From the NCBI GenBank assembly GCA_001303225.1, contig LJNI01000006.1, positions 1-27,088 of the forward strand: a DNA stretch of 27,088 nucleotides, written 5' to 3'. The position numbers and the translations under genes are program-made. Below the pieces are notes generated by a model. It worked only from the letters and a program-made list of their open reading frames with translations. It was not told where the DNA came from and searched no databases. Of the stretch, positions 11,012 through 25,889 are shown piece by piece. Each line of letters begins with the position of its first letter. The first letter of the stretch is position 1. The stretch is from a candidate division TA06 bacterium DG_78 (GTDB lineage Bacteria > Hydrothermota > Tepidihabitantia > SM23-42).

Positions 11012-11449
11012 CTAAACATCAGCAGCTTGACCGATCGCAATGTGGCGCGTTGAATCTGCAATAACATACACCTTCTCATTGTTGCTCAGTGGATCAACTG
11101 GCATGATATAAAATCCTCTGAAATTTTTACCATAATCAAAACTGGTACCCCTGATGATTTCTCCATCGGTAAACTCGGCCTTGATCTTTATGCCTCGACG
11201 ATTACGACTATCGACATCACTAAAGTGTTTCTTTTCAACATAGTCCTTGTTGCCCTCGAGTGTTTTGACGAAGAAGAGTGCTTTTAGATCATTGGTTCTC
11301 ACCTCATACGTATTTTCTTTACCTCTTCCATATGTTGACCTGAGATGAAATGTTTCTTGTGCTGGAATAAAATCATCAGTATATCCTTTCAGTAATTTAC
11401 CGCTCTTAAAATGGGCAACAATACAGTGCTTTGTATGTGATATATTCAT
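11012..11449 (-). CDS. KGYT-family two-repeat protein, copy 1
   Basis: A 145-residue soluble protein, one of four homologues in this window. It is built from two related beta-rich halves: IVAHFKSGKLLKGYTDDF near the N-terminus and IKAEFTDGEIIRGTSFDY near residue 95, each an 'F.DG...GYT/GTS' unit, joined by LKALFFVKTLEGNKDY and followed by GFYIMPVDPLSNNEKVYV. I recall this domain from deltaproteobacterial proteins as a domain of unknown function (possibly DUF6982), sometimes near PilZ domains; I am not sure of the number. I start at ATG 11449, nine bases after a perfect TATAAT, since the ATG at 11467 overlaps that box. It lies 126 bases downstream of a MshEN gene. Confidence 0.8.
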   Translation of the reverse strand: MNISHTKHCIVAHFKSGKLLKGYTDDFIPAQETFHLRSTYGRGKENTYEVRTNDLKALFFVKTLEGNKDYVEKKHFSDVDSRNRRGIKIKAEFTDGEIIRGTSFDYGKNFRGFYIMPVDPLSNNEKVYVIADSTRHIAIGQAADV

Positions 11450-11458
11450 CGTTTTTTT

Positions 11459-11486
11459 ATTATACATCTATTTTTATACGTGTCAA
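11459..11486 (-). promoter_or_regulatory. Promoter, leaderless type, for KGYT copy 1
   Basis: Minus strand TTGACA (11486-11481), 16-base spacer, TATAAT (11464-11459): both boxes match the bacterial consensus exactly. The ATG follows after nine bases with no ribosome site. Confidence 0.85.
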
Positions 11487-11575: not shown

Positions 11576-12040
11576 TTATTCACCTGTAGATTCATTGAAG
11601 AGATAATCGGTCATATCGATCAAGAAGAATTTATCGAGTAATTTTACAATGCGCTCTGGTTCAGCAACTAACGGCACAATTTCTTTTTCGGTAAACTTCT
11701 TGAACTTATTAATCATTTCATGGTTAGTTGGATCACCAATGGCGACGTGGAGTTTGTCCTTTATTTCATAGAGTGGAATGACTCTATTTTTATAGAGGAA
11801 TTCTTCAGGAAACGATTTGATGAGATCTTCATCGAGCATTTCTGGCTTAAGCTCTACAAATGGCATTGCTGCTTGCTCGCTGAGCATCCGAATCAAAACA
11901 TCAGAATTTACATACCCTAATTCCATCAGTATTTCTCCAAGTCTCTTTTTCTTAGTTTTCTGAAGTTCGAGTGCCTCATTAACCTGATCCTCGACGATAA
12001 TGCCACTCTGTACGAGCAGTTCACCAATTCTCTTTGCCAT
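11576..12040 (-). CDS. Stand-alone MshEN / GspE N-terminal domain protein, copy 1
   Basis: A 154-residue protein that matches only the N-terminal domain of type II secretion/type IV pilus ATPases (GspE, PilB, MshE); no Walker ATPase domain follows. It has the tandem pattern RIGELLVQSGIIVEDQVNEA then LELQ, and KRLGEILMELGYVNSDVLIR then MLSEQ, i.e. RLGxxL...LxxxLxxQ twice. In MshE this pattern binds cyclic di-GMP. The second part (FLYKNRVIPLYEIKDKLHVA, IGDPTN, EPERIVKLLDKFF) is the usual alpha/beta half. The ATG lies six bases after its -10 box, so it is a leaderless candidate. Paralogues are at 22278-22700 and 25437-25889. Confidence 0.85.
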   Translation of the reverse strand: MAKRIGELLVQSGIIVEDQVNEALELQKTKKKRLGEILMELGYVNSDVLIRMLSEQAAMPFVELKPEMLDEDLIKSFPEEFLYKNRVIPLYEIKDKLHVAIGDPTNHEMINKFKKFTEKEIVPLVAEPERIVKLLDKFFLIDMTDYLFNESTGE

Positions 12041-12160: not shown

Positions 12161-13573
12161 TTACGAGCTCTTGACCTCTTTTCCTGTCCAGCAATAGGTA
12201 CATAAATTATCAACTCCCAATTCTGTTGCAGCACTCATATCTTCTAACTGTTGATATTTTAACGATGTTACATTCAAATCCTTTTCCATGACTCGTATCA
12301 TCTTTTTATATTGTGCTGACCCATGGTCGAGATAGGGTTCAACATTCTGGATGTGTTTTCCGTGCATCTGTTTGAGTATTCTTCGTGCAAATAATTCATC
12401 GAATCTCCTCGTGGAAAACAGAAACTTACATGGAAACATGAGCGCGGGACACGCTGGCCTCACGTGAACCTCTTTTGCACCAGCATTCCACAATTTCACG
12501 AGCAGATAATTCTTGAGTTGCGTTCCGCGGACGATGGAATCTTCAGTAATTACCATTCTTTGTTCTCTAATGAGAACGTCAGCGGTTATCTGTTTCATGA
12601 GTGCGATGAGATCTCTTACCTTCTGTGATGGTGGTACGTAACTCCGTGCCCAGCCAGGCGTATATTTTAAGAGCGGTATTTTTACTGGTATTCCTGATTC
12701 GTGTGAATAACCATGAGCATAGGCGGTTCCTGAGTCTGCTACGCCAGCAACGAAATCGACTTTCACGGTGTCCTTTCTTGCAATAATTCTTCCAGAATCT
12801 TCTCTAAATGCCTCGACATTTTTTCCTTCATATTCCGACGCGGGAAAACCCGTGTAGACGAATAGGAAAGTACACAATTGCATAATAGTACCAGGTTTCT
12901 TAACCTGCGTGACTTTATTCTCATGCAGCTGAATGATTTCTCCGGGCCCGAGGAATCTTATAGTTTTAAAGCCGAGATTTTTGTAGGCGCATGTTTCCGA
13001 TGCTACAATGTAGGCACCGTTTTTTTTAGCTAATGCTAATGGCGTCCTTCCATACTTATCACGTGCTGCATAAATTCCCTCTTTACCAAGCAGCAACAAT
13101 GACATAGAACCATCGATTTGTGTATGCATATATTCTATGCCATCCACAATAGTATTCCCCCTATTGATTAATTTGGCTACTAATTCTATTTGATTTACCC
13201 TACCATTCGGCATCTCGGAAAAAACTACGCCTTCAACAATCAGTGCCTTAGCGAGTCTGTTCTGGTTATTTATATAACCAGCGCCGCAGATAGCATACTC
13301 TCCAAATTTTAGCCGCATGATAAGTGGCTGTGTATCTCTATCACTTATGACGCCAATACCAGCATTGCCTTGCATGTTGATGTAATCAATGTCTTCTGAA
13401 AATCTCGACTTAAATTGTGCTCTTCCCATATTGTGAATTTTCTTGTCTATCTTTTTACCATCTGATATTGAAATACCTCCGTATGAAGTTCCGAGGTGAG
13501 TGTGATAATCTGTAGCATAGAATAAATCATCTTTGCAATCTTTTTTTGATAAAACACCAACAATACCACTCAT
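12161..13573 (-). CDS. PurF-like amidophosphoribosyltransferase homologue with Ser at the nucleophile position
   Basis: A 470-residue protein with the two-domain plan of glutamine PRPP amidotransferase: an Ntn-type glutaminase fold (about 1-230; landmarks DLFYATDYHTHLGTSYGG, GNAGIGVISDRD, GSMSLLLLG, ARDKYGRTPLAL) and a PRTase domain with an intact PRPP loop, MVITEDSIVRGTQLKN (340-355). In true PurF the residue after the initiator Met is the catalytic Cys; here it is Ser (AGT at 13570-13568). I recall a PurF-like subfamily with Gly or Ser there and the same CxxDLFY...DYxxHLGT start, so this is probably not a sequencing error. The end carries CTYCWTGKE. The role may be ammonia-dependent PRPP amination or another PRPP reaction. 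It lies 3 bases after the FAH gene. Confidence 0.8.
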   Translation of the reverse strand: MSGIVGVLSKKDCKDDLFYATDYHTHLGTSYGGISISDGKKIDKKIHNMGRAQFKSRFSEDIDYINMQGNAGIGVISDRDTQPLIMRLKFGEYAICGAGYINNQNRLAKALIVEGVVFSEMPNGRVNQIELVAKLINRGNTIVDGIEYMHTQIDGSMSLLLLGKEGIYAARDKYGRTPLALAKKNGAYIVASETCAYKNLGFKTIRFLGPGEIIQLHENKVTQVKKPGTIMQLCTFLFVYTGFPASEYEGKNVEAFREDSGRIIARKDTVKVDFVAGVADSGTAYAHGYSHESGIPVKIPLLKYTPGWARSYVPPSQKVRDLIALMKQITADVLIREQRMVITEDSIVRGTQLKNYLLVKLWNAGAKEVHVRPACPALMFPCKFLFSTRRFDELFARRILKQMHGKHIQNVEPYLDHGSAQYKKMIRVMEKDLNVTSLKYQQLEDMSAATELGVDNLCTYCWTGKEVKSS

Positions 13574-13576
13574 GCT

Positions 13577-14260
13577 TTATGCCCCTTCCACTGTTTCTTG
13601 TTCTGCTTTGAACATTAAGGTACCGATTCCTTCGATGCCTGCTTCGATACTATCGCCATGTTGTATCGGCCCAACACCTTCGGGCGTGCCAGTTGCAATG
13701 ACATCCAGAGGTTCGAGCGTCATGATCTTCGATATGTAGGAGATCAATTCTTTTACTGGGAAGATCATATTTCTCGTATTACTGTGCTGTCTGAATTCAC
13801 CGTTTATTTTCAACCATATATCGAGATTACTGATATCGATATCGCGCGCAGGTACTATTTTTGGTCCAATAGGAGCAAAGGTATCGAACCCCTTAGCTAC
13901 TGTCCATGGCAATCCTGTTTTGATTGCCTTCGCCTGGATATCCCGTGCTGTAATATCAACAATAATCGTGTAACCAAGAATATTTTTCAGCGCCTCGTGT
14001 GGAGATACTTTGCAACATCTATTTTTTATAACAACAGCGAGTTCCACCTCATAATCTACACGATTTGACATTTTTGGTAAAATTACCACTCCATTATTAC
14101 TGATCATCGCAGACGGTGGTTTGAGGAAAATGTTCGGGTTTTCTGATACTGATTGACCCATCTCGTCAGCGTGGGCTCGATAATTACGTGCAACGGCAAT
14201 GATTTTCGTAGCCTTGAGTTCAACTTTCTTGCCGTTAAAATCCAAGGTTACTGTATTCAT
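13577..14260 (-). CDS. Fumarylacetoacetate hydrolase (FAH) family protein
   Basis: A 227-residue single-domain FAH protein, the size of FAHD1/YcgM-type acylpyruvases, oxaloacetate decarboxylases and 2-hydroxyhepta-2,4-diene-1,7-dioate isomerases. Family landmarks are ARNYRAHADEMG, NPNIFLKPPSAMI, RVDYEVELAVVI (metal ligands Glu71 and Glu73), GYTIIVDITARD (Asp102), WTVAKGFDTFAPIGP and VIATGTPEGVGP. The divalent-metal site looks complete, so it should act on a beta-keto or acylpyruvate-type acid in the cytoplasm; the exact substrate is open. Start ATG 14260 has no ribosome site and no convincing promoter next to it. The downstream PurF-like gene begins 3 bases after its stop, so the two are co-transcribed. 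Confidence 0.85.
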   Translation of the reverse strand: MNTVTLDFNGKKVELKATKIIAVARNYRAHADEMGQSVSENPNIFLKPPSAMISNNGVVILPKMSNRVDYEVELAVVIKNRCCKVSPHEALKNILGYTIIVDITARDIQAKAIKTGLPWTVAKGFDTFAPIGPKIVPARDIDISNLDIWLKINGEFRQHSNTRNMIFPVKELISYISKIMTLEPLDVIATGTPEGVGPIQHGDSIEAGIEGIGTLMFKAEQETVEGA

Positions 14261-14368: not shown

Positions 14369-14830
14369 TTATGCTTCAGCTAAGGTTCCAATTGCGATAT
14401 CGAGTGGCGATTCAGCAAGTACATAAACCAGGTCATTATTGCACCGTGCGTCAATGGGCCTCAGATAAAATCCTGTAAAGATATGACGATAATCAGGCGT
14501 TGTTCCTCTGATTACCTCGCCATCATGGAATACCAGCTTCACCTTCAATCCGTGGAGATGAGACGCATCGCTCTTTTGAAATTTGTTTTTTTCATTGTAT
14601 TCTTTATTTCCCTCGAATGTTTTGACAAAGAAAAGTGCTTTGAGTGACTGCATATCAATTTCAGTGACGTCATCTTCGTTATGTGCTGAGATGATGGTAA
14701 ATATTTTATTTGGAGGAGCGAAATCTTTGGTATAGCCTTTCGCAAGGCTTCCGTCTTTAAAATGGGCAACAACCTTCTTCCTTCCATATTGCATATCGTC
14801 AAATGTTCCGTCAAACATCTCCTCAAACAT
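14369..14830 (-). CDS. KGYT-family two-repeat protein, copy 2
   Basis: A 153-residue paralogue of the proteins at 11012, 15057 and 21712. First half: VVAHFKDGSLAKGYTKDFAP; linker: LKALFFVKTFEGNKEY; second half: LKVKLVFHDGEVIRGTTPDY, then GFYLRPIDARCNNDLVYVLA and the end DIAIG. It has a 12-residue longer N-terminus (MFEEMFDGTFDDMQYG) than the others. Unlike copies 1 and 4 it has a conventional AAGGAGGA ribosome site. It is followed by a strong terminator and preceded by two promoters, one adjacent (14873-14878) and one about 190 bases upstream. No signal peptide; presumably cytoplasmic. Biochemical function is unknown. Confidence 0.8.
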   Translation of the reverse strand: MFEEMFDGTFDDMQYGRKKVVAHFKDGSLAKGYTKDFAPPNKIFTIISAHNEDDVTEIDMQSLKALFFVKTFEGNKEYNEKNKFQKSDASHLHGLKVKLVFHDGEVIRGTTPDYRHIFTGFYLRPIDARCNNDLVYVLAESPLDIAIGTLAEA

Positions 14831-15056: not shown

Positions 15057-15494
15057 TTATTTATCAGCTTCAGTACCGACTGCAATATCGACCAGAGAAC
15101 TCGATACGACATAAATCATTTCATTATTGCTCTTGGGATCAACCGGTATAAGAAAGAAACCTCTGTAATGCTTGCTGTAGTCAAAACTCATTCCTCTGAT
15201 AATTTCACCATCAAAGAATTTGATCTTGATCTTCAAACCTCGGAGACCAAAGGCATCAAAATCATCAAATGTTTTCCTTTCGACATAATCGTTATTTCCC
15301 TTAAATGTTTTTACAAAAAAGAGTGCTTTAAGATCAACAGTATTTACCTCACTGACACTTTCCCGTTCATATGCTGATGCTACGGTAAATGTTTCTCGCT
15401 GTGGTATAAAGTCTTGGGTGTATCCTTTGAGCAAATTCCCATCTTTAAAGTGGGCAACAATACGATTACGTTCATATCGTAGTTCAGTTAACAT
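15057..15494 (-). CDS. KGYT-family two-repeat protein, copy 3
   Basis: A 145-residue paralogue, closest by eye to copy 1 (shared LLKGYTxDFIPxxETF, and FDYxK..RGF in the second half). Order: IVAHFKDGNLLKGYTQDF, LKALFFVKTFKGNNDY, IKIKFFDGEIIRGMSFDY, GFFLIPVDPKSNNEMIYVV, DIAVG. It has its own promoter and a GAGGAG ribosome site, and lies just downstream of the corrinoid operon in the same direction and upstream of copy 2, making a tandem pair. It is soluble, with no signal peptide. Function unknown. Confidence 0.8.
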   Translation of the reverse strand: MLTELRYERNRIVAHFKDGNLLKGYTQDFIPQRETFTVASAYERESVSEVNTVDLKALFFVKTFKGNNDYVERKTFDDFDAFGLRGLKIKIKFFDGEIIRGMSFDYSKHYRGFFLIPVDPKSNNEMIYVVSSSLVDIAVGTEADK

Positions 15495-15606: not shown

Positions 15607-16500
15607 CTATTTGCAGCGCATCACTTCGACTGCTCTCTTTATTGCCCAGATGTGTTCAGGCGTTGTGCCACAGCAACCGCCGATGATTGACACGCCTAGA
15701 GAAACGAGTCTTTTTGCCCTCTCAGCCATAAACCTTGGTGTTTCAGGATAAATTGCTCTGGTGCCCTTCATTTCTGGCATACCGGCATTAGACTGAATAA
15801 TGATGGGGAGTCTGCTCTTTTGTTTGAATTCCTCGGCTATCATAATCATATTCTCTATGCCATTACCACAGTTTGAACCGATGATATCAGCTCCTGCTTG
15901 TTCAAGCTTTATTGCAGCCGTTGCTATGTCTGTTCCCATTATTGTGTAGAAACCTTTAGGTGTTGGATCAAATGTCATGGTTACGATGACAGGTATTGAT
16001 GGTGCAGCAGTCTTTGCTGCTTTCAACGCAATTATTGCTTCAGTCAGATCGGTCATTGTCTCTATACATATAATATCAACACCTTCGTCGTTGATGATTC
16101 GTATCTGCTCAACAAAACTGTTGTACACATCTTCCTGTTCAACATCACCGTACGGTTTGAGCAATCTTCCACATGGGCCGCACGATGCAGATACGTAAGC
16201 CTGTTCTCCGATTACCTTTTTTACTGCACGGATAGCAACCCTGTTTATTTGCTCGATTTTACCCTCCATTGAATAGAGTGATAACTTCACTGGAGAAGCA
16301 CCAAAGGTATTGGTCTGAATGATATCGGCTCCTGCTTCAAGGTAGAGTCTGGCAATTTCTTCAAGAACTTCAGGGTGCGTGAGGTTGAACGATTCTGGGG
16401 GTTCGCCAGGGTTCAGTCCGCGTTCCATGAGCATCGTTCCCATGGCTCCATCTGCAATGAGTATCTCACCACTCTTCAATCGCCGAAGCAGTTTTTGCAT
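15607..16500 (-). CDS. Homocysteine S-methyltransferase (MetH N-terminal module type)
   Basis: A 297-residue zinc enzyme of the MetH homocysteine-binding (betaine-homocysteine methyltransferase) barrel: LIADGAMGTMLMERGLNPGE at the start, then GADIIQTNTFGASPVKL and VSASCGPCGRLLKPYG. The zinc cysteines sit in GSNCGNG and GGCCGTTPEH near the end. It should activate homocysteine thiolate to take a methyl group from the methylcorrinoid protein encoded just upstream. Length equals the HMT module alone; there are no folate, B12 or activation domains. I start at ATG 16500, one base after the upstream stop; a TTG at 16518 would overlap the corrinoid gene. Last gene of the operon. Confidence 0.88.
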   Translation of the reverse strand: MQKLLRRLKSGEILIADGAMGTMLMERGLNPGEPPESFNLTHPEVLEEIARLYLEAGADIIQTNTFGASPVKLSLYSMEGKIEQINRVAIRAVKKVIGEQAYVSASCGPCGRLLKPYGDVEQEDVYNSFVEQIRIINDEGVDIICIETMTDLTEAIIALKAAKTAAPSIPVIVTMTFDPTPKGFYTIMGTDIATAAIKLEQAGADIIGSNCGNGIENMIMIAEEFKQKSRLPIIIQSNAGMPEMKGTRAIYPETPRFMAERAKRLVSLGVSIIGGCCGTTPEHIWAIKRAVEVMRCK

Positions 16501-16501
16501 T

Positions 16502-17140
16502 CTATCTTTGGTGGACAAGTTTTTTAATACACTCTACTGCCTTGATACTGTCATACCCGTATGCATCTGCGTCAATCTCTCGAGCAAATTCTTCTGATAC
16601 TGACGCACCACCTACTATTGTCCTTATGCTGTTGTTGAGACTCTTTTCTTTGAGCAGATCAACGACCTTCTTCATCACTGGCATTGTTGTGGTGAGCAGG
16701 GCAGACATGCCAATTACCGTTGCATTCTCTTGTCGGGCAGTTTCTACAAATTTTTCTGGTGCCACATTATTGCCGAGGTCGATAATTTCAAAACCAGCAC
16801 CTCTCAGCATAATGCCGACGAGATTTTTGCCTATGTCGTGTAAGTCGCCCTGAACTGAACCAATAACCACTTTTCCCATAGTTGGTATTTTCCCCTTGAT
16901 AAACAGTGGTTTGAGAATGTCCATTCCTGCATACATTGCTTTTGCTGCAAGGAGAACGTCTGGCAGGAAAATTTCATGGATCTTATATTTTTCACCGATA
17001 ATGTTCATACCATGTATGAGTCCATTGTTGAGTATATCTTTTGGTGCACATTTTTTTTCTATTGCCTGCCTTGTGAATGCAGATACCTTCTCTTCATTAC
17101 CTCGTTGTAAATATAGTGAAATTTCAGTTAGCACATCCAC
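16502..17140 (-). CDS. Corrinoid protein (MtbC/MttC-like, MetH B12 module)
   Basis: A 212-residue cobamide-binding methyl carrier. Residues about 1-85 are the helical cap domain (NGLIHGMNIIGEKYKIHEIF, LPDVLLAAKAMYAGMDIL). The Rossmann-like B12 domain has GDLHDIGKNLV with the D-x-H-x-x-G motif (Asp99, His101, Gly104) whose His is the lower cobalt ligand, then GMSALLTTTMPVM and the GGASVS end motif. It starts with GTG at 17140 behind AAAGGAG, 18 bases after the activation gene. It should receive a methyl from the MttB-type enzyme and pass it to the homocysteine methyltransferase. Confidence 0.92.
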   Translation of the reverse strand: MDVLTEISLYLQRGNEEKVSAFTRQAIEKKCAPKDILNNGLIHGMNIIGEKYKIHEIFLPDVLLAAKAMYAGMDILKPLFIKGKIPTMGKVVIGSVQGDLHDIGKNLVGIMLRGAGFEIIDLGNNVAPEKFVETARQENATVIGMSALLTTTMPVMKKVVDLLKEKSLNNSIRTIVGGASVSEEFAREIDADAYGYDSIKAVECIKKLVHQR

Positions 17141-17158
17141 CGTGGTACTCCTTTCATT

Positions 17159-17893
17159 TCAATCGTCCCTGTTACTCGTGCGTGTTTGAGCGAATTGTTT
17201 TATTCGGGTATGACAAGAGCGTGTTGTGCACTGTGTACAGAACGGATATGAATCTTTGAACATATGAATTTTTTTGTTTCCAGCAACTAATACACCTGAT
17301 ACTGATTTTAACGGCTTCATGAGGTAACTATCGAGTAACGTAATACCGATATCTTCTGGATGGAGGAATGTAAAGAGTTTTTTCTGGCCACTGATATGCC
17401 ACCCACAGTAACCCGGACTATATCGTACGATCGTGGTAGCAGGCGTACTTTCTCCTTTTTGAGTGAGCAGATTAAAAAAAAGCTTTTCGATACTGTCGGC
17501 TGCCTTTTCAACACCGAGTGAAGCAGTGGCATCCAGCATGCTTGCCAGAGCGAATTCATGTGTCTTAAAGAGTTCAGTTATTTTTCGACTCACCTCTTCA
17601 CCAACAGTTAACGCAAAGAGGGCTAAATGGTCAGCTTTTCTAAAAATTATATCCAGTGGCGTCTCTTTCTCATTCAGTGCTTCGCCATAGTAGATGTTCT
17701 CAAATTCTGGTTTTGAAATACCTATCATGATTCCAGCAGGTCGAGCCTGTTCACGAAAAAATTCTACTGCTCCGTTAAAGAGTGTTACCACTTTTTTAGA
17801 AGGTTTCTTGTCAGAAGGAATACCCTGCATTTCTAAGACATCACGCCTCTTTGGCGTCACATCACCTGTGGCAATTTTAATAATTTTTTTCAT
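17159..17893 (-). CDS. MetH activation-domain-like corrinoid reactivation protein
   Basis: A 244-residue protein resembling the C-terminal AdoMet-binding activation domain of methionine synthase (Met_synt_B12). Landmarks are ALFALTVGEEVSRK, DATASLGVEKAADS, and the motif RYSPGYCGWHISGQ (157-170), matching the R-x-x-x-G-Y AdoMet site of MetH. It continues FTFLHPEDIGITLLDSYLM and PLKSVSGVL. A C-x2-C-x4-C tail (Cys219, 222, 227) extends beyond the MetH domain and might hold a metal or take part in electron transfer. Expected role: rescue of the inactive Co(II) corrinoid by reductive methylation. Its ATG overlaps the MttB stop (ATGA), so the two are translationally coupled; the longer frame to 18067 is not used. 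Confidence 0.85.
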   Translation of the reverse strand: MKKIIKIATGDVTPKRRDVLEMQGIPSDKKPSKKVVTLFNGAVEFFREQARPAGIMIGISKPEFENIYYGEALNEKETPLDIIFRKADHLALFALTVGEEVSRKITELFKTHEFALASMLDATASLGVEKAADSIEKLFFNLLTQKGESTPATTIVRYSPGYCGWHISGQKKLFTFLHPEDIGITLLDSYLMKPLKSVSGVLVAGNKKIHMFKDSYPFCTQCTTRSCHTRIKQFAQTRTSNRDD

Positions 17894-19350
17894 GAATTTA
17901 CAGAAGACAAGTGCTCCATACCGTATTTCCGTGCTTCTTTTGTCATCAGTTTCGTTAATTCTTTTTTTACGCTCTCTGAAAGTCGTGAGGGCACATAATT
18001 TTGCAACAATTTTTCTACTTCTCGGTGTGCCCTCTCGAGAAGCGTCAGACCTCCTTCTTCGTGCCACCTCGTCCTATTCGCACGGTCAATGACCGGACCA
18101 GGAAGATACAGTTCTTCTCTCAGATATTTTTGGGTGTGTGTTGATATGAGTAGGTGTTTTTCCCTTACGAGTTCTTCGAATCGTGGTAGAGCAGGAAAAT
18201 CTTCTTTTGGTTCGATGCCCTTCACAAGACGAAGAACCATGCCACAGATTTCATTGTCGAGGACGAGTTTTTCAAGACTCTGACAGCTTTCAAAATCGAG
18301 CATACCAGGTCCTGATATATTGTTTATTCCTGAAAGGGCAGCCAAGGTTGCTCCCATTGAGGACTCGAGTCCTGCTTGCGCATCAAGCTGTTTCGAATCG
18401 CTGAGTGATATATATGCCTGAGTCGGCACACCAAGATGCTTTCCGATTTCGTTATAGGCACAATCAATCATCTGCGTTGCTGCATCGCCCATCGGCGTTG
18501 TTTCATATCGGACATCAAACACAGCAGGAGAACCACCATAGAGTACTGGTGTACCTGGATGGGTCAGCTGACTTATGACAATACCACTCAATGTCTCAGC
18601 AGTATGCTGGACTAATGTTCCAACGAGGGTGACCGGTGCCATAAATCCAGACAATGGCATAGAAATAAATTCTACAGGGATTGCGTATCGGGCACAGTCA
18701 ATGAGATTTTGGGAAGTAACATCGCTCCATTTAAGAGGCGATGTTGGGCAGCAGGAGAAAATTGTGAGTGGCTTTGTGGCAAGTTCCTCTTCTGTACCAC
18801 GAATAGCAAGCTGGAGGTCTCTCATAATAGTGAATGCCTCGATTGTAAATGCTCCAGTGACAACAGGTTTTGCACAATAGATGAGACTGAGATAGAGCCG
18901 ATAGCTATCTGAAATCTTTTCATGAACATCAGCAGGAATAAAGGCTGTGCTTTGCGAAGCAATATTATTAAGCTGACTGGTAATTTTTGCGTATTTGATA
19001 TAATCAGCGGTCTGTGGTTTACGTATTTTCTTTGTGGCATAATCGAGGATATTCAATGCGGCAGAACCAGGTGTAAAGTAGACATTATAATTTGAAAAGT
19101 CGTGAGTTTCATTGCTATGGACATCATAGAGTTTGAAAGATCGGGGGACTGTTTCTAATGCCTTGTCTATGATTGTATCAGTTAGTAAAACACGTTCTCC
19201 ACCCCTATCTACATGTGCTCCGTAATCATGGAGCAGAGAGAGAATATTTTTATTATGAATCTCAACCCCAAGTTTGCACAGGATATCCCGTGCTTCTGTA
19301 ATTATTTGCTTGATGAGCGTATCACTCAAAAATCTCACAACTGGTCGCAT
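17890..19350 (-). CDS. MttB-superfamily (trimethylamine-type) methyltransferase, non-pyrrolysine
   Basis: A 486-residue TIM-barrel methyltransferase of the MttB superfamily: VRFLSDTLIKQIITEARDIL, LGVEIHNKN, DYGAHVDRGGERVLL, YFTPGSAALNILD, then PLSGFMAPVTLVGTLVQHTA, PVLYGGSPAVFDVRY, GLESSMGATLAALSG and NNISGPGMLDF. Archaeal MttB reads an in-frame amber codon as pyrrolysine; here the frame has none, placing it with the non-Pyl members (for example MtgB, glycine betaine). It should transfer a methyl from a quaternary amine to the corrinoid protein. The substrate cannot be read from sequence. ATG 19350 gives the normal family N-terminus but has only a weak ribosome site; a 40-residue ORF ends 34 bases upstream. 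Confidence 0.9.
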   Translation of the reverse strand: MRPVVRFLSDTLIKQIITEARDILCKLGVEIHNKNILSLLHDYGAHVDRGGERVLLTDTIIDKALETVPRSFKLYDVHSNETHDFSNYNVYFTPGSAALNILDYATKKIRKPQTADYIKYAKITSQLNNIASQSTAFIPADVHEKISDSYRLYLSLIYCAKPVVTGAFTIEAFTIMRDLQLAIRGTEEELATKPLTIFSCCPTSPLKWSDVTSQNLIDCARYAIPVEFISMPLSGFMAPVTLVGTLVQHTAETLSGIVISQLTHPGTPVLYGGSPAVFDVRYETTPMGDAATQMIDCAYNEIGKHLGVPTQAYISLSDSKQLDAQAGLESSMGATLAALSGINNISGPGMLDFESCQSLEKLVLDNEICGMVLRLVKGIEPKEDFPALPRFEELVREKHLLISTHTQKYLREELYLPGPVIDRANRTRWHEEGGLTLLERAHREVEKLLQNYVPSRLSESVKKELTKLMTKEARKYGMEHLSSVNS

Positions 19351-20508: not shown

Positions 20509-21552
20509 TTATTTAAGGTTTGCCATTACCTCATTCAATGCTTTTAAGGTGGTATCAATATCATCTCTACTGATGCCATAGTGTGTGACCATACGGTACC
20601 GCTTGGGTCCTGTGCGTAAAAATTTGATTCCTCTCTTTTCAAGCTGTTCTACTAATGCATCAGGCTTTATACGATCAGCAGTGAGGTCAAAATAGACGAT
20701 ATTTGTTTGTATTCTTTTGAGATCGATGGATACACCAGGGATTTTTTCAATTCCTTCAGCAAGACGTCGGGCATTGTCGTGATCTTCTTGTAGCCGTTCG
20801 ATCATCACCTCAATCGCTGTGATACCAGCAGCTGCAATGATGCCACATTGACGCATGCCGCCCCCTAAAATCTTTCGATTTCGACGTGCTTCTGCAATAA
20901 ACTTCTGACTACCGCATACTACTGATCCGATTGGTGCAGAAAGTCCTTTTGATAGACAGAACGTTACCGAGTCAACATGCTTTGTGAATTCCTTGACATC
21001 GACACCCAAGGCAACGACGGCATTGAATATTCGAGCACCATCACAGTGCACAGAGAGTTTATGTTGTCGGGCGAGTGATGCAACTGAGGTAAAATAGTCT
21101 GGTGTTAATGCAGCGCCAGAACAGCGGTTATGGGTATTTTCCAGACAGATCAACCGGGTACGTGCCCAATGTTCATTATCACCGCGAATTGCTGCCTCGA
21201 TGTCTTCCAGACGCATCGTCCCATCAGGCTGGTTGGGGATGGTATGGGGATGTATTCCGCCGATGACAGACATGCCACCAGCTTCGTTAAGAAACATGTG
21301 TGATTTGTCACCGAGAATTACTTCTTCACCACGTTTGCAATGGGTGAGCGTACACACGAGGTTGCCCTGGGTTCCACTGCTCACCAAGAGCCCTGCCTCT
21401 TTGTCCATCAACTCAGCAGCCATTGTCTGAAGCTGGTTTGTTGTTGGGTCTTCTGCAAAGACGTCATCGCCCAGTTCAGCATTATATATCGCTGTGCGCA
21501 TCTCATCAGTCGGTAACGTAACCGTATCACTACGTAAATCGATGAGCGACAT
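20509..21552 (-). CDS. ltaE: Low-specificity threonine aldolase
   Basis: A 347-residue PLP enzyme of fold type I that cleaves L-threonine or L-allo-threonine to glycine and acetaldehyde. Family landmarks: LIDLRSDTVTLPTDEMRTAI at the start, GDDVFAEDPTTNQLQ, SSGTQGNLV, GDKSHMFLNEAGG (His85 stacks on PLP), CLENTHNRCSG, HCDGARIFNA (Asp171, Arg174) and the PLP lysine in LSKGLSAPIGS (Lys202). Length is normal. The ATG at 21552 follows its -10 box by five bases with no ribosome site, so it is a leaderless candidate. It may supply glycine; a link with the neighbouring methyl/C1 operon is possible but unproven. Confidence 0.93.
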   Translation of the reverse strand: MSLIDLRSDTVTLPTDEMRTAIYNAELGDDVFAEDPTTNQLQTMAAELMDKEAGLLVSSGTQGNLVCTLTHCKRGEEVILGDKSHMFLNEAGGMSVIGGIHPHTIPNQPDGTMRLEDIEAAIRGDNEHWARTRLICLENTHNRCSGAALTPDYFTSVASLARQHKLSVHCDGARIFNAVVALGVDVKEFTKHVDSVTFCLSKGLSAPIGSVVCGSQKFIAEARRNRKILGGGMRQCGIIAAAGITAIEVMIERLQEDHDNARRLAEGIEKIPGVSIDLKRIQTNIVYFDLTADRIKPDALVEQLEKRGIKFLRTGPKRYRMVTHYGISRDDIDTTLKALNEVMANLK

Positions 21553-21711: not shown

Positions 21712-22152
21712 TTATGTTACTGCTTTGCTTCCGATCTGAATCTGGACCGTCGAATCTGCCTCGACATATACCTTATCATTATTAGCTTTAGGATCTACTG
21801 GTATGACAAAAAACCCCCTAAAGATACTACCAGGATCAGGCGTTGTTCCTCTCATGATTTCACCATCGGAAAACGTGACCTTAACCTTCAGCCCTTGTCG
21901 GTCGAGCATGTAAGCATCATCGAATGTATTTTTTGCAACATATTGCTTATTGCCTTCAAATGATTTAACGAAGAAAAGGGCTTTCAGCTCAGTCGTGCGT
22001 ATTTCCATAATATCATCGGAACGCTCTCCTGATTGTATACTGAAGTTTTTTAGCGGAGGGATGAAATCATGAGTGTATCCTTTAATGATACGACCGTCCT
22101 TAAAATGAGCAACGACACGTTGTGGTTCACGTAACTTCTGATCAGGTGCCAT
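21712..22152 (-). CDS. KGYT-family two-repeat protein, copy 4
   Basis: A 146-residue paralogue: VVAHFKDGRIIKGYTHDFIP, LKALFFVKSFEGNKQY, VKVTFSDGEIMRGTTPDP, GFFVIPVDPKANNDKVYV and a short IQIG end. The conserved residues line up with the other three copies over the full length. It shares GTTPD in the second half with copy 2. The ATG follows its -10 box by five bases and lacks a ribosome site (leaderless candidate). It lies 125 bases downstream of MshEN copy 2, repeating the arrangement at 11012-12040. Soluble; function unknown. Confidence 0.8.
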   Translation of the reverse strand: MAPDQKLREPQRVVAHFKDGRIIKGYTHDFIPPLKNFSIQSGERSDDIMEIRTTELKALFFVKSFEGNKQYVAKNTFDDAYMLDRQGLKVKVTFSDGEIMRGTTPDPGSIFRGFFVIPVDPKANNDKVYVEADSTVQIQIGSKAVT

Positions 22153-22277: not shown

Positions 22278-22700
22278 TTATATCTTGACCAATAACCGTG
22301 TAATCTGCTTTGGTTCAGCTCCGCACAGAACAATTTGTTTTTTGGTGAGCTGTCGGAGTTTACGTGCCACCTTTTGATTTGCTGGGTCACCAGTGGCAAC
22401 ATGGAGCGTATTGCCTTTTTCATACAGCGGCAGAATATTATTTTCATAGAGCACTCTGTACGGAAACAATTTAGCAAGCTGTGTGTCAAGAATCTTTGAT
22501 TGGAGTTCCATAAAAGGGATACCTGCTTGCTCACAGAGCTTCTGACTTAGTATTCGAGGATGTACGTAACCCAATTGAAGCAGAATCTCTCCCAGCTTTT
22601 TCTTGGTATTTTTCTGTAACCTGAGTGCCTCTTCGACATGTTCGCTACGGACAACACCGGCCTTGATCAGCAATTCACCAATTAACATACGTTTCTTCAT
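22278..22700 (-). CDS. Stand-alone MshEN / GspE N-terminal domain protein, copy 2
   Basis: A 140-residue protein: MKKRMLIGELLIKAGVVRSE, then VEEALRLQ, KKLGEILLQLGYVHPRIL, KLCEQAGIPFMELQSKILD, LYENNILPLYEKGNTLHVAT and GDPANQ. It lacks an ATPase domain. In the first repeat the usual Arg of RLGxxL is replaced (MLIGELL), and in the second it is Lys (KLGEIL), so cyclic di-GMP binding may be weaker than in copies 1 and 3. I start at ATG 22700, seven bases after the -10 box; the TTG at 22718 used by a longer frame lies upstream of that box. It is divergent from rubredoxin 2. Confidence 0.82.
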   Translation of the reverse strand: MKKRMLIGELLIKAGVVRSEHVEEALRLQKNTKKKLGEILLQLGYVHPRILSQKLCEQAGIPFMELQSKILDTQLAKLFPYRVLYENNILPLYEKGNTLHVATGDPANQKVARKLRQLTKKQIVLCGAEPKQITRLLVKI

Positions 22701-22707
22701 TAATACT

Positions 22708-22735
22708 ATTTTAAACAAAATTACCTGTTTGTCAA
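22708..22735 (-). promoter_or_regulatory. Promoter, leaderless type, for MshEN copy 2
   Basis: Minus strand TTGACA (22735-22730), 16-base spacer, TAAAAT (22713-22708), then seven bases to ATG 22700. Confidence 0.7.
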
Positions 22736-25436: not shown

Positions 25437-25889
25437 TTATTTTTTAACCTTACGATGTTTTGGGTCGGTTGTGAGATATTTATTTAATAACTCGGCAATC
25501 TGCTCGGGTTCAGCGCCGAATAATACAATTTCTTTATTGGTAAATTCTTGTAGTTTATTCACTATGTTACGATTGGTCGGGTCACCAGTTGCAACATAGA
25601 GGACCTCGTCGATTTCGTACAACGGTATTATATTATTCTTATAGAGAAATCTCATAGGGAATGAATTAACGATGCTCAGATCGAGCATTTTCGATTGGAG
25701 TTCCATATATGGCATATTTGTTTGCTCACAGAGCATCCTGGTTAAATCTCGAGAATTTATGTACCCTAATTCTACAAGAATTTCACCGAGCCTCATTTTC
25801 TTCTCTTTTTGTATTTCGAGGGCTTCTTCGACTTGTTCTCCTATGACGACACCCTTCTTAACTAATAATTCACCGATTCTTGCTGCCAT
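25437..25889 (-). CDS. Stand-alone MshEN / GspE N-terminal domain protein, copy 3
   Basis: A 150-residue paralogue with the cleanest tandem motif: RIGELLVKKGVVIGEQVEEA then LEIQ, and MRLGEILVELGYINSRDLTR then MLCEQ; next NMPYMELQSKMLD, FLYKNNIIPLYEIDEVLYVA, TGDPTN, AEPEQIAELLNKYL and a basic tail (KHRKVKK). It lacks an ATPase domain. Unlike the other two copies it has no KGYT gene downstream; the TonB receptor gene follows instead. A GAGGAG lies about 14 bases before the ATG at 25889, rather far for a ribosome site, and no consensus promoter is clear. Predicted cytoplasmic ligand-binding or adaptor protein. Confidence 0.82.
   Translation of the reverse strand: MAARIGELLVKKGVVIGEQVEEALEIQKEKKMRLGEILVELGYINSRDLTRMLCEQTNMPYMELQSKMLDLSIVNSFPMRFLYKNNIIPLYEIDEVLYVATGDPTNRNIVNKLQEFTNKEIVLFGAEPEQIAELLNKYLTTDPKHRKVKK

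Follow-up and report, generated by a model that had tools for sequence, protein, structure and literature searches.

The minus-strand operon at positions 15607-19350 of a 27,088-nucleotide stretch of DNA appears to encode a self-contained methionine synthase made of four proteins, which depends on cobalamin and is independent of folate. The stretch, called the window here, comes from candidate division TA06 bacterium DG_78 (GenBank assembly GCA_001303225.1, contig LJNI01000006.1, positions 1 to 27,088). The probability of this reading is put at about 0.72. It draws on gene content, gene order, conservation, motifs, co-variation, and the complementarity of methionine routes between genomes; the reactions, their direction, and the methyl donor are inferred from these.

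In the proposed cycle, an MttB-family protein would move a methyl group from a donor (donor-CH3) to a corrinoid carrier in its Co(I) state. A homocysteine S-methyltransferase (HMT) would then pass the methyl group from the methyl-Co(III) carrier to zinc-bound homocysteine, giving methionine. Carrier that had been oxidized to Co(II) would be rescued by an activation protein through reductive methylation with S-adenosylmethionine (AdoMet), and this protein would replace the RamA-type activases of published MttB systems. MttB would take the role of the folate module of MetH, and methylenetetrahydrofolate reductase (MTHFR) would be dispensable. The operon would be the sole methionine synthase coupled to a B12 carrier found in some genomes, and would work beside MetH in others.

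The genes are transcribed in the order MttB, activation protein, carrier, HMT. MttB (486 amino acids, non-pyrrolysine; PF06253, 258 bits), the proposed donor module, lies at 17890..19350. It is followed at 17159..17893 by the proposed re-priming module, a stand-alone MetH-type AdoMet activation protein (244 amino acids; PF02965, 40.1 bits). The carrier, which consists of a helical cap and a B12-binding domain (212 amino acids; PF02607 and PF02310), is at 16502..17140, and the MetH-type HMT (297 amino acids; PF02574, 237.5 bits) is at 15607..16500. The stop codon of MttB (TGA, 17892-17890) and the start codon of the activation gene (ATG, 17893-17891) overlap as ATGA. A gap of 18 bases separates the activation gene from the GTG start of the carrier (17140), and a gap of 1 base separates the carrier gene from the ATG start of HMT (16500). 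Because the ATGA overlap and the 1-base gap fix the starts, HMT begins at 16500 with 297 amino acids, replacing a 303-residue TTG frame, and the activation protein begins at 17893 with 244, replacing a 302-residue GTG frame. The four chains are separate, and score at most 180 bits against the metH model TIGR02082 (cut-off 1010.85).

A sequence-only reading of this DNA had described four adjacent minus-strand genes of these kinds, their tight packing, and the motifs RYSPGYCGWH, DLHDIG, GSNCGNG, and GGCCGTT. Pfam matches confirm all four genes, the junctions were found as described, and every motif is present in the window. That reading had also noted that the operon has no gene for a tetrahydrofolate (THF) methyltransferase. 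No pterin-binding gene lies inside 15607-19350.

The nearest solved structure to HMT is T. maritima MetH (1q7m, E 4e-54). The three cysteines of the HMT motifs GSNCGNG and GGCCGTT do not vary across 37 distinct rows, and T. maritima MetH has its own cysteines at the aligned positions. In MetH-type barrels these three cysteines bind zinc.

The carrier contains the motif GDLHDIGKNLV, and at least 98% of 50 carrier rows retain D-x-HDIGKNLV. Its best NCBIfam models are MtgC (202.9 bits) and pyl_corrinoid (195 bits), with metH at 137.6 bits, all below their cut-offs. By these scores the carrier seems closest to MtgC, not to MetH.

The PF02965 match of the activation protein (cut-off 25) spans profile positions 119-251 of 273, which is the C-terminal half only. 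Relatives were aligned from 33 chosen sequences, with L055, L062, and L074 dropped for stops or doubtful starts. The resulting 31 proteins (the window and 30 relatives) share 19 invariant columns, which include G161 and Y162 of the AdoMet motif RYSPGY as well as the three cysteines and the Arg of a C-X2-C-X4-C-X2-R tail at the C-terminus (residues 219-230). This tail may bind a metal or an iron-sulfur cluster, supplying the electron that flavodoxin gives to MetH. A profile of the 31 sequences matches T. maritima 1j6r at 3.2e-12 and the activation domains of MetH weakly (E 0.015-0.051). 1j6r is TM0269, a separate T. maritima activation protein, which reportedly was described together with T. 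maritima MetH by Huang et al. in 2007; that partner MetH carries a folate domain. Both activation proteins thus stand alone. Unlike the present one, the 1j6r chain has 214 amino acids, of which the profile matches none beyond residue 204, short of the cysteine tail.

The operon had been called a dissected methionine synthase. This overstates descent from MetH, since MtgC is the top-scoring model for the carrier and a cysteine tail sets the activation protein apart.

Conservation of the arrangement was followed in 66 loci found by a protein search with the window MttB. Of these, 53 are bacterial with MttB 67-81% identical to that of the window, six are from Asgard archaea (46-48%), and seven more have 29-46% identity. 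The bacterial loci lie in records labelled WOR-3/Stahlbacteria, Zixiibacteriota, Aminicenantes, Fermentibacteria, Planctomycetota, Spirochaetes, Electryonea, Neomarinimicrobiota, and others, and the nearest named relatives are mostly candidate division WOR-3 or Candidatus Stahlbacteria. All four genes occur in the same order on one strand at 35 of the 66 loci, spread over several phyla. At 29 of these 35 no junction has a gap of more than 40 bases, with starts partly guessed. The activation gene was not detected at three loci (L036, L042, L063), and HMT adjoins MttB in a different order at four Asgard loci (L080, L082, L087, L094). Among the remaining 24 are many truncated at a contig end or gap, some long loci without HMT, and seven more distant ones.

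Clustering of the genes that flank MttB at the 66 loci recovered the four members of the operon in 64, 41, 41, and 39 loci. No other neighbour was shared by more than six, and flanking genes were common to close relatives only. Pairwise distances also co-vary between the proteins, with correlations of 0.88-0.94 in the 34 loci with all four near full length and 0.67-0.79 in the 31 bacterial ones. The four-gene arrangement is a true conserved unit and not due to chance, because 35 of 66 loci keep the order and 29 of those 35 are tightly packed.

Several loci show other arrangements. In G142 and G143, MttB, carrier, and HMT are present with no activation gene adjacent (L022, L025, L036, L042). 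At L068, L069, L076, and L079 (Planctomycetota, Bacteroidetes) MttB belongs to the same clade, and neither carrier nor HMT was found adjacent. G085 was considered as a natural broken operon and rejected; its break consists of masked or gap letters, with unrelated sequence attached.

The genomes that carry the operon provide a second line of evidence. The window genome (2.09 Mb, 173 contigs, 79.5% complete) has a single HMT, and no MTHFR, no MetE-type protein (PF01717), and no folate-bearing MetH was detected there. Its sole Pterin_bind (PF00809) protein is a dihydropteroate synthase (DHPS) on another contig (TIGR01496, 296 bits, cut-off 162.6). Here, absence of MTHFR means absence of the PF02219 type; flavin-free MTHFR, RamA, and MtgA-type enzymes were not searched for.

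The family and order of the window comprise 27 genomes, for which tables were read by hand and p-values are uncorrected for kinship. MetH is present in all 13 genomes without MttB, as one frame with HMT and pterin domains in 10 and as frames cut by contig ends in G081, G082, and G092. By comparison, it is present in 7 of 14 genomes with MttB (one-sided Fisher p 0.0039), and was not found in G000, G073, G075, G084, G086, G088, and G089. MTHFR occurs in 19 of the 20 genomes with MetH (not G072) as against one of the seven without it (G084), giving p 1.6e-4; a match below cut-off in G073 was counted as absent. PF01717 has no match in any of the 27. The single-contig genomes G075, G086, and G088 (90, 93, and 96% complete) have the operon, no detected MTHFR, and one pterin protein, of the DHPS type. 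Since AdoHcyase is found in 23/23 genomes of the family, homocysteine should form there.

In G085, G087, and G092, MTHFR adjoins MetH. For instance, the 777-residue MetH of G087 (HMT, pterin, cap, and B12 domains) lies next to a 278-residue MTHFR-family protein (46.6 bits). The PF02965 activation domain was found in none of the 13 MttB-free genomes with MetH, whose MetH (774-816 amino acids where complete) may be reactivated otherwise.

For a wider scan, 50 of the 66 loci were chosen and their genomes searched; loci on short contigs and distant loci were left out beforehand, and WOR-3 genomes recur. Thirteen of the 50 show no MTHFR and, apart from one DHPS-type match, no pterin protein (MetE-type proteins were not searched there). 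Across the 147 genomes of the phylum, MttB was found in 27, Pterin_bind in 121, HMT in 69, a MetE-type protein in 28, the activation domain in 30, and MTHFR in 63 (57 above cut-off). G142 and G143 have no Pterin_bind match at all, and possibly no folate synthesis; both have a MetE-core-like frame of 406 amino acids.

The central claim of the sequence-only reading, a methionine synthase operon free of folate, is thus supported by single-contig genomes with the operon and without detected MTHFR or MetE, by MetH in 13/13 MttB-free relatives, and by an MttB clade apart from MtgB. It had named a full-length MetH in the same genome, together with evidence that this HMT acts elsewhere, as a finding that would speak against it. 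No such MetH was detected in the window genome; many other genomes have both MetH and the operon, and there MetH would be an additional route.

Several findings count against this interpretation. MTHFR is present in 31 of the 50 scanned genomes with MttB relatives, and many have MetH too, so in some genomes the operon is one route among others. In G084 an intact MTHFR stands without a neighbouring MetH. MttB lacks a nearby HMT at six loci that are long enough to show one (L049, L068, L069, L076, L079, L083). A divergent second PF02574 protein of about 310 amino acids, with GGCCGT kept, occurs in G075 (L203; about 107 bits in Pfam), G086 (L202), G088 (L204 and L205, both interrupted by masked stretches), and G089 (L206). 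The three tested (G075, G086, G089) score far below all NCBIfam cut-offs, and matches like it also occur in the MetH-bearing G083, G085, and G087. The operon HMT is therefore not the only possible homocysteine methyltransferase in G075, G086, G088, and G089. Absence calls are limited by the 79.5% completeness of the window genome and by the profiles: MtgA has no sequence identity to solved structures according to passages of PMC7154762, which bears on the reach of PF00809, and PF02219 misses flavin-free MTHFR according to passages of PMC7857596. HMT was not seen in more than half of the 147 genomes of the phylum, and scavenging of methionine may therefore be common. Finally, no gene for importing or making a donor is linked to the operon in the flanks of the 66 loci.

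In G084 itself, the MTHFR-family gene (L207:3551-4384) is of the kind that follows MetH in relatives, and the preceding 3.5 kb contain no MetH.

What the donor might be can be approached through MttB. The window protein scores 363.8 bits against TIGR02369, below the cut-off of 525, and matches PDB entries 7xcl, 9yce, and 2qne at E about 1e-52. It is a non-pyrrolysine MttB with Leu316 at the Pyl334 site, a column with L in 58 of the 60 clade rows and F in the other 2; Ser346 stands at the position of Tyr364 in pyrrolysine MttB. In a tree with several long branches and unsure deep positions, a clade of 72 MttB rows excludes MtgB (support 100/99), and a quick tree, for which the reference rows had been corrected, gives the same picture. 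The clade is also apart from pyrrolysine MttB and proteobacterial homologues. Grouping with enzymes that feed a THF methyltransferase, which had been raised as a finding that would weaken the folate-free claim, was not seen.

Docking has led to the proposal that Y94, N199, R309, H345, and F353 of MtgB bind glycine betaine (passages of PMC6855144). In all 60 bacterial rows of the clade these are replaced by S96, C201, Q311, S346, and E354, a comparison that rests on residues from docking only. Six Asgard rows share four of the five replacement residues, with His instead of Gln. Within the family of the window, a BCCT importer was found in none of 23 genomes and an OpuAC betaine importer in one of 23. 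According to passages of PMC12155760, MthB uses phosphocholine, and the other known substrates discussed carry a carboxylate. An N-methylated compound is the probable donor, and to judge from the replaced residues it is probably not glycine betaine. The clade may have one common donor, probably without a carboxylate, that enters by some way other than the classic betaine importers or is made in the cell. Methionine from a methylated amine without methyl-folate had been proposed; the folate-free part is supported, and the methylated-amine donor is putative, with the proposed betaine residues replaced and BCCT (0/23) and OpuAC (1/23) absent or rare.

Reading the donor from linked genes failed, as flank clustering gave no recurrent neighbour beyond the four operon genes. 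A GntG-family threonine-aldolase-like gene lies near MttB at 20509-21552 of the window and at L069:2326-3366 (71% identical), beside a planctomycete MttB without HMT; it was not seen at the other searched loci, and was taken as coincidence.

Four other explanations may be weighed against the folate-independent synthase. The operon could be an accessory salvage route that makes methionine from scavenged glycine betaine or similar osmolytes and is not the main biosynthetic route. Its frequent occurrence alongside MetH and MTHFR and its scattered distribution across phyla would fit; several genomes without a detected folate-linked methionine synthase, the near absence of betaine importers, and the 60/60 replacement of proposed betaine-binding residues make this unlikely. 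Alternately, MttB could be a catabolic demethylase that feeds one-carbon oxidation or the Wood-Ljungdahl pathway through a THF methyltransferase encoded elsewhere, with HMT as a side exit. This is the role of the known systems MtgB and MthB (passages of PMC12155760 and PMC12478193), some clade members have no local HMT, and MtgA-type enzymes probably escape PF00809. It is nonetheless quite improbable: without MTHFR and MetH, methyl-THF could be neither oxidized nor used in G075, G086, and G088, HMT is in the operon at 35/66 loci, and the activation protein is of the MetH type. Moreover, each of the 27 MttB-bearing genomes of the phylum has one MttB match, as against up to seven MttB proteins in marine users (passages of PMC12478193).

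MttB could also draw its methyl group from a methyl pterin that MTHFR produces, 5-methyl-THF or some other; the operon would then be an ordinary synthase with a non-homologous folate subunit. A general donor of this kind would account for the missing importers, the MttB and MetH barrels have the TIM fold in common (passages of PMC9842639), and an MTHFR match (E 0.001) occurs in 16 of the 27 MttB-bearing phylum genomes, besides the case of G084. The other 11, which include the single-contig G075, G086, and G088, have no such match, and MTHFR in the family mostly travels with MetH, as in G085, G087, and G092, so this is a very improbable account. Least of all is it to be expected that HMT is a direct betaine-homocysteine methyltransferase (BHMT), with MttB and carrier in another pathway. 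HMT does score 230.4 bits with the BHMT-type model PRK07534, but this is below the cut-off of 338. The match to MetH 1q7m (4e-54) is far stronger than that to BHMT (5e-22), and all four genes are tightly coupled and co-vary.

The closest known system is MtgBCDE of Ruegeria pomeroyi, which links quaternary-amine demethylation to methionine synthesis (passages of PMC12478193). In MtgBCDE and in the split methionine synthase of Phaeobacter inhibens, as in the present operon, MttB-family protein, corrinoid carrier, and HMT are all separate (passages of PMC12478193 and PMC5764234). Further passages of PMC12478193 state that methionine synthesis by MtgBCDE requires the pterin subunit MtgD, that a MetF paralogue is involved, that RamA-like and DUF1638 proteins are the presumed reactivators, and that mtgBCDE are co-located in S. 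meliloti. The Roseobacter MtgBCDE, published in PNAS in 2025 (PMC12478193), is close prior art, yet it needs a pterin subunit. The present operon has no such subunit, has its own AdoMet-type activation protein, and occurs without detected MTHFR. An MtgD-like second PF00809 match was found neither in the window genome, at 79.5% completeness, nor in the single-contig G075, G086, and G088. RamA-like and DUF1638 proteins are absent from within the operon; the genome was not searched for them.

Other systems share parts of the design. Like MetH, the operon has a PF02574 homocysteine barrel with zinc cysteines, a cap and B12 domain, and a PF02965 activation domain. Unlike MetH, it has no PF00809 folate barrel, is split into four chains, has a carrier nearer to MtgC, and includes MttB. 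Desulfitobacterium MtgB/MtgC/MtgA and Eubacterium MthBCA also pair an MttB superfamily enzyme with a corrinoid carrier, but send the methyl group to THF, with a RamQ activase in Eubacterium (passages of PMC7154762 and PMC12155760); Desulfitobacterium MtgB is outside the present MttB clade. MesA-MesD also make methionine without methyl-folate, and are built on the MetE core (PF01717; passages of PMC7857596). The present operon has instead a PF02574 barrel of the MetH type, served by an MttB of its own as donor module. No description of the four-gene operon was found in the titles, abstract openings, and passages of open-licence literature.

Elsewhere, the window encodes four DUF6982 proteins (11012-11467, 14369-14830, 15057-15494, 21712-22152) and three short stand-alone MshEN (PF05157) proteins (11576-12040, 22278-22718, 25437-25889). 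The latter resemble the N-terminal domain of type IV pilus ATPases, minus the ATPase. At 12161-14260, the gene of a PurF-like amidotransferase paralogue, which stays below the cut-off of TIGR01134, is directly coupled to an FAA-hydrolase-family gene.

A broader proposal is tentative and rather doubtful. The operon could represent a further class of folate-independent synthase, found in many uncultured bacterial phyla and in Asgard archaea, whose MttB clade uses one common donor, something other than a carboxylated betaine and maybe made inside the cell. Whole lineages would then uncouple methionine from folate. Apart from this proposal, genomes without MetE, MetH, and MTHFR are easily taken for those of methionine auxotrophs; should the operon work in the way outlined further above, this would be wrong for parts of several uncultured phyla. 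Their methionine supply would hinge on a methylated donor and cobalamin, not on folate. Known non-pyrrolysine MttB substrates carry a carboxylate or phosphate (passages of PMC12155760); with the residues proposed to bind the carboxylate replaced in the present clade, the MttB superfamily would gain a new type of donor.

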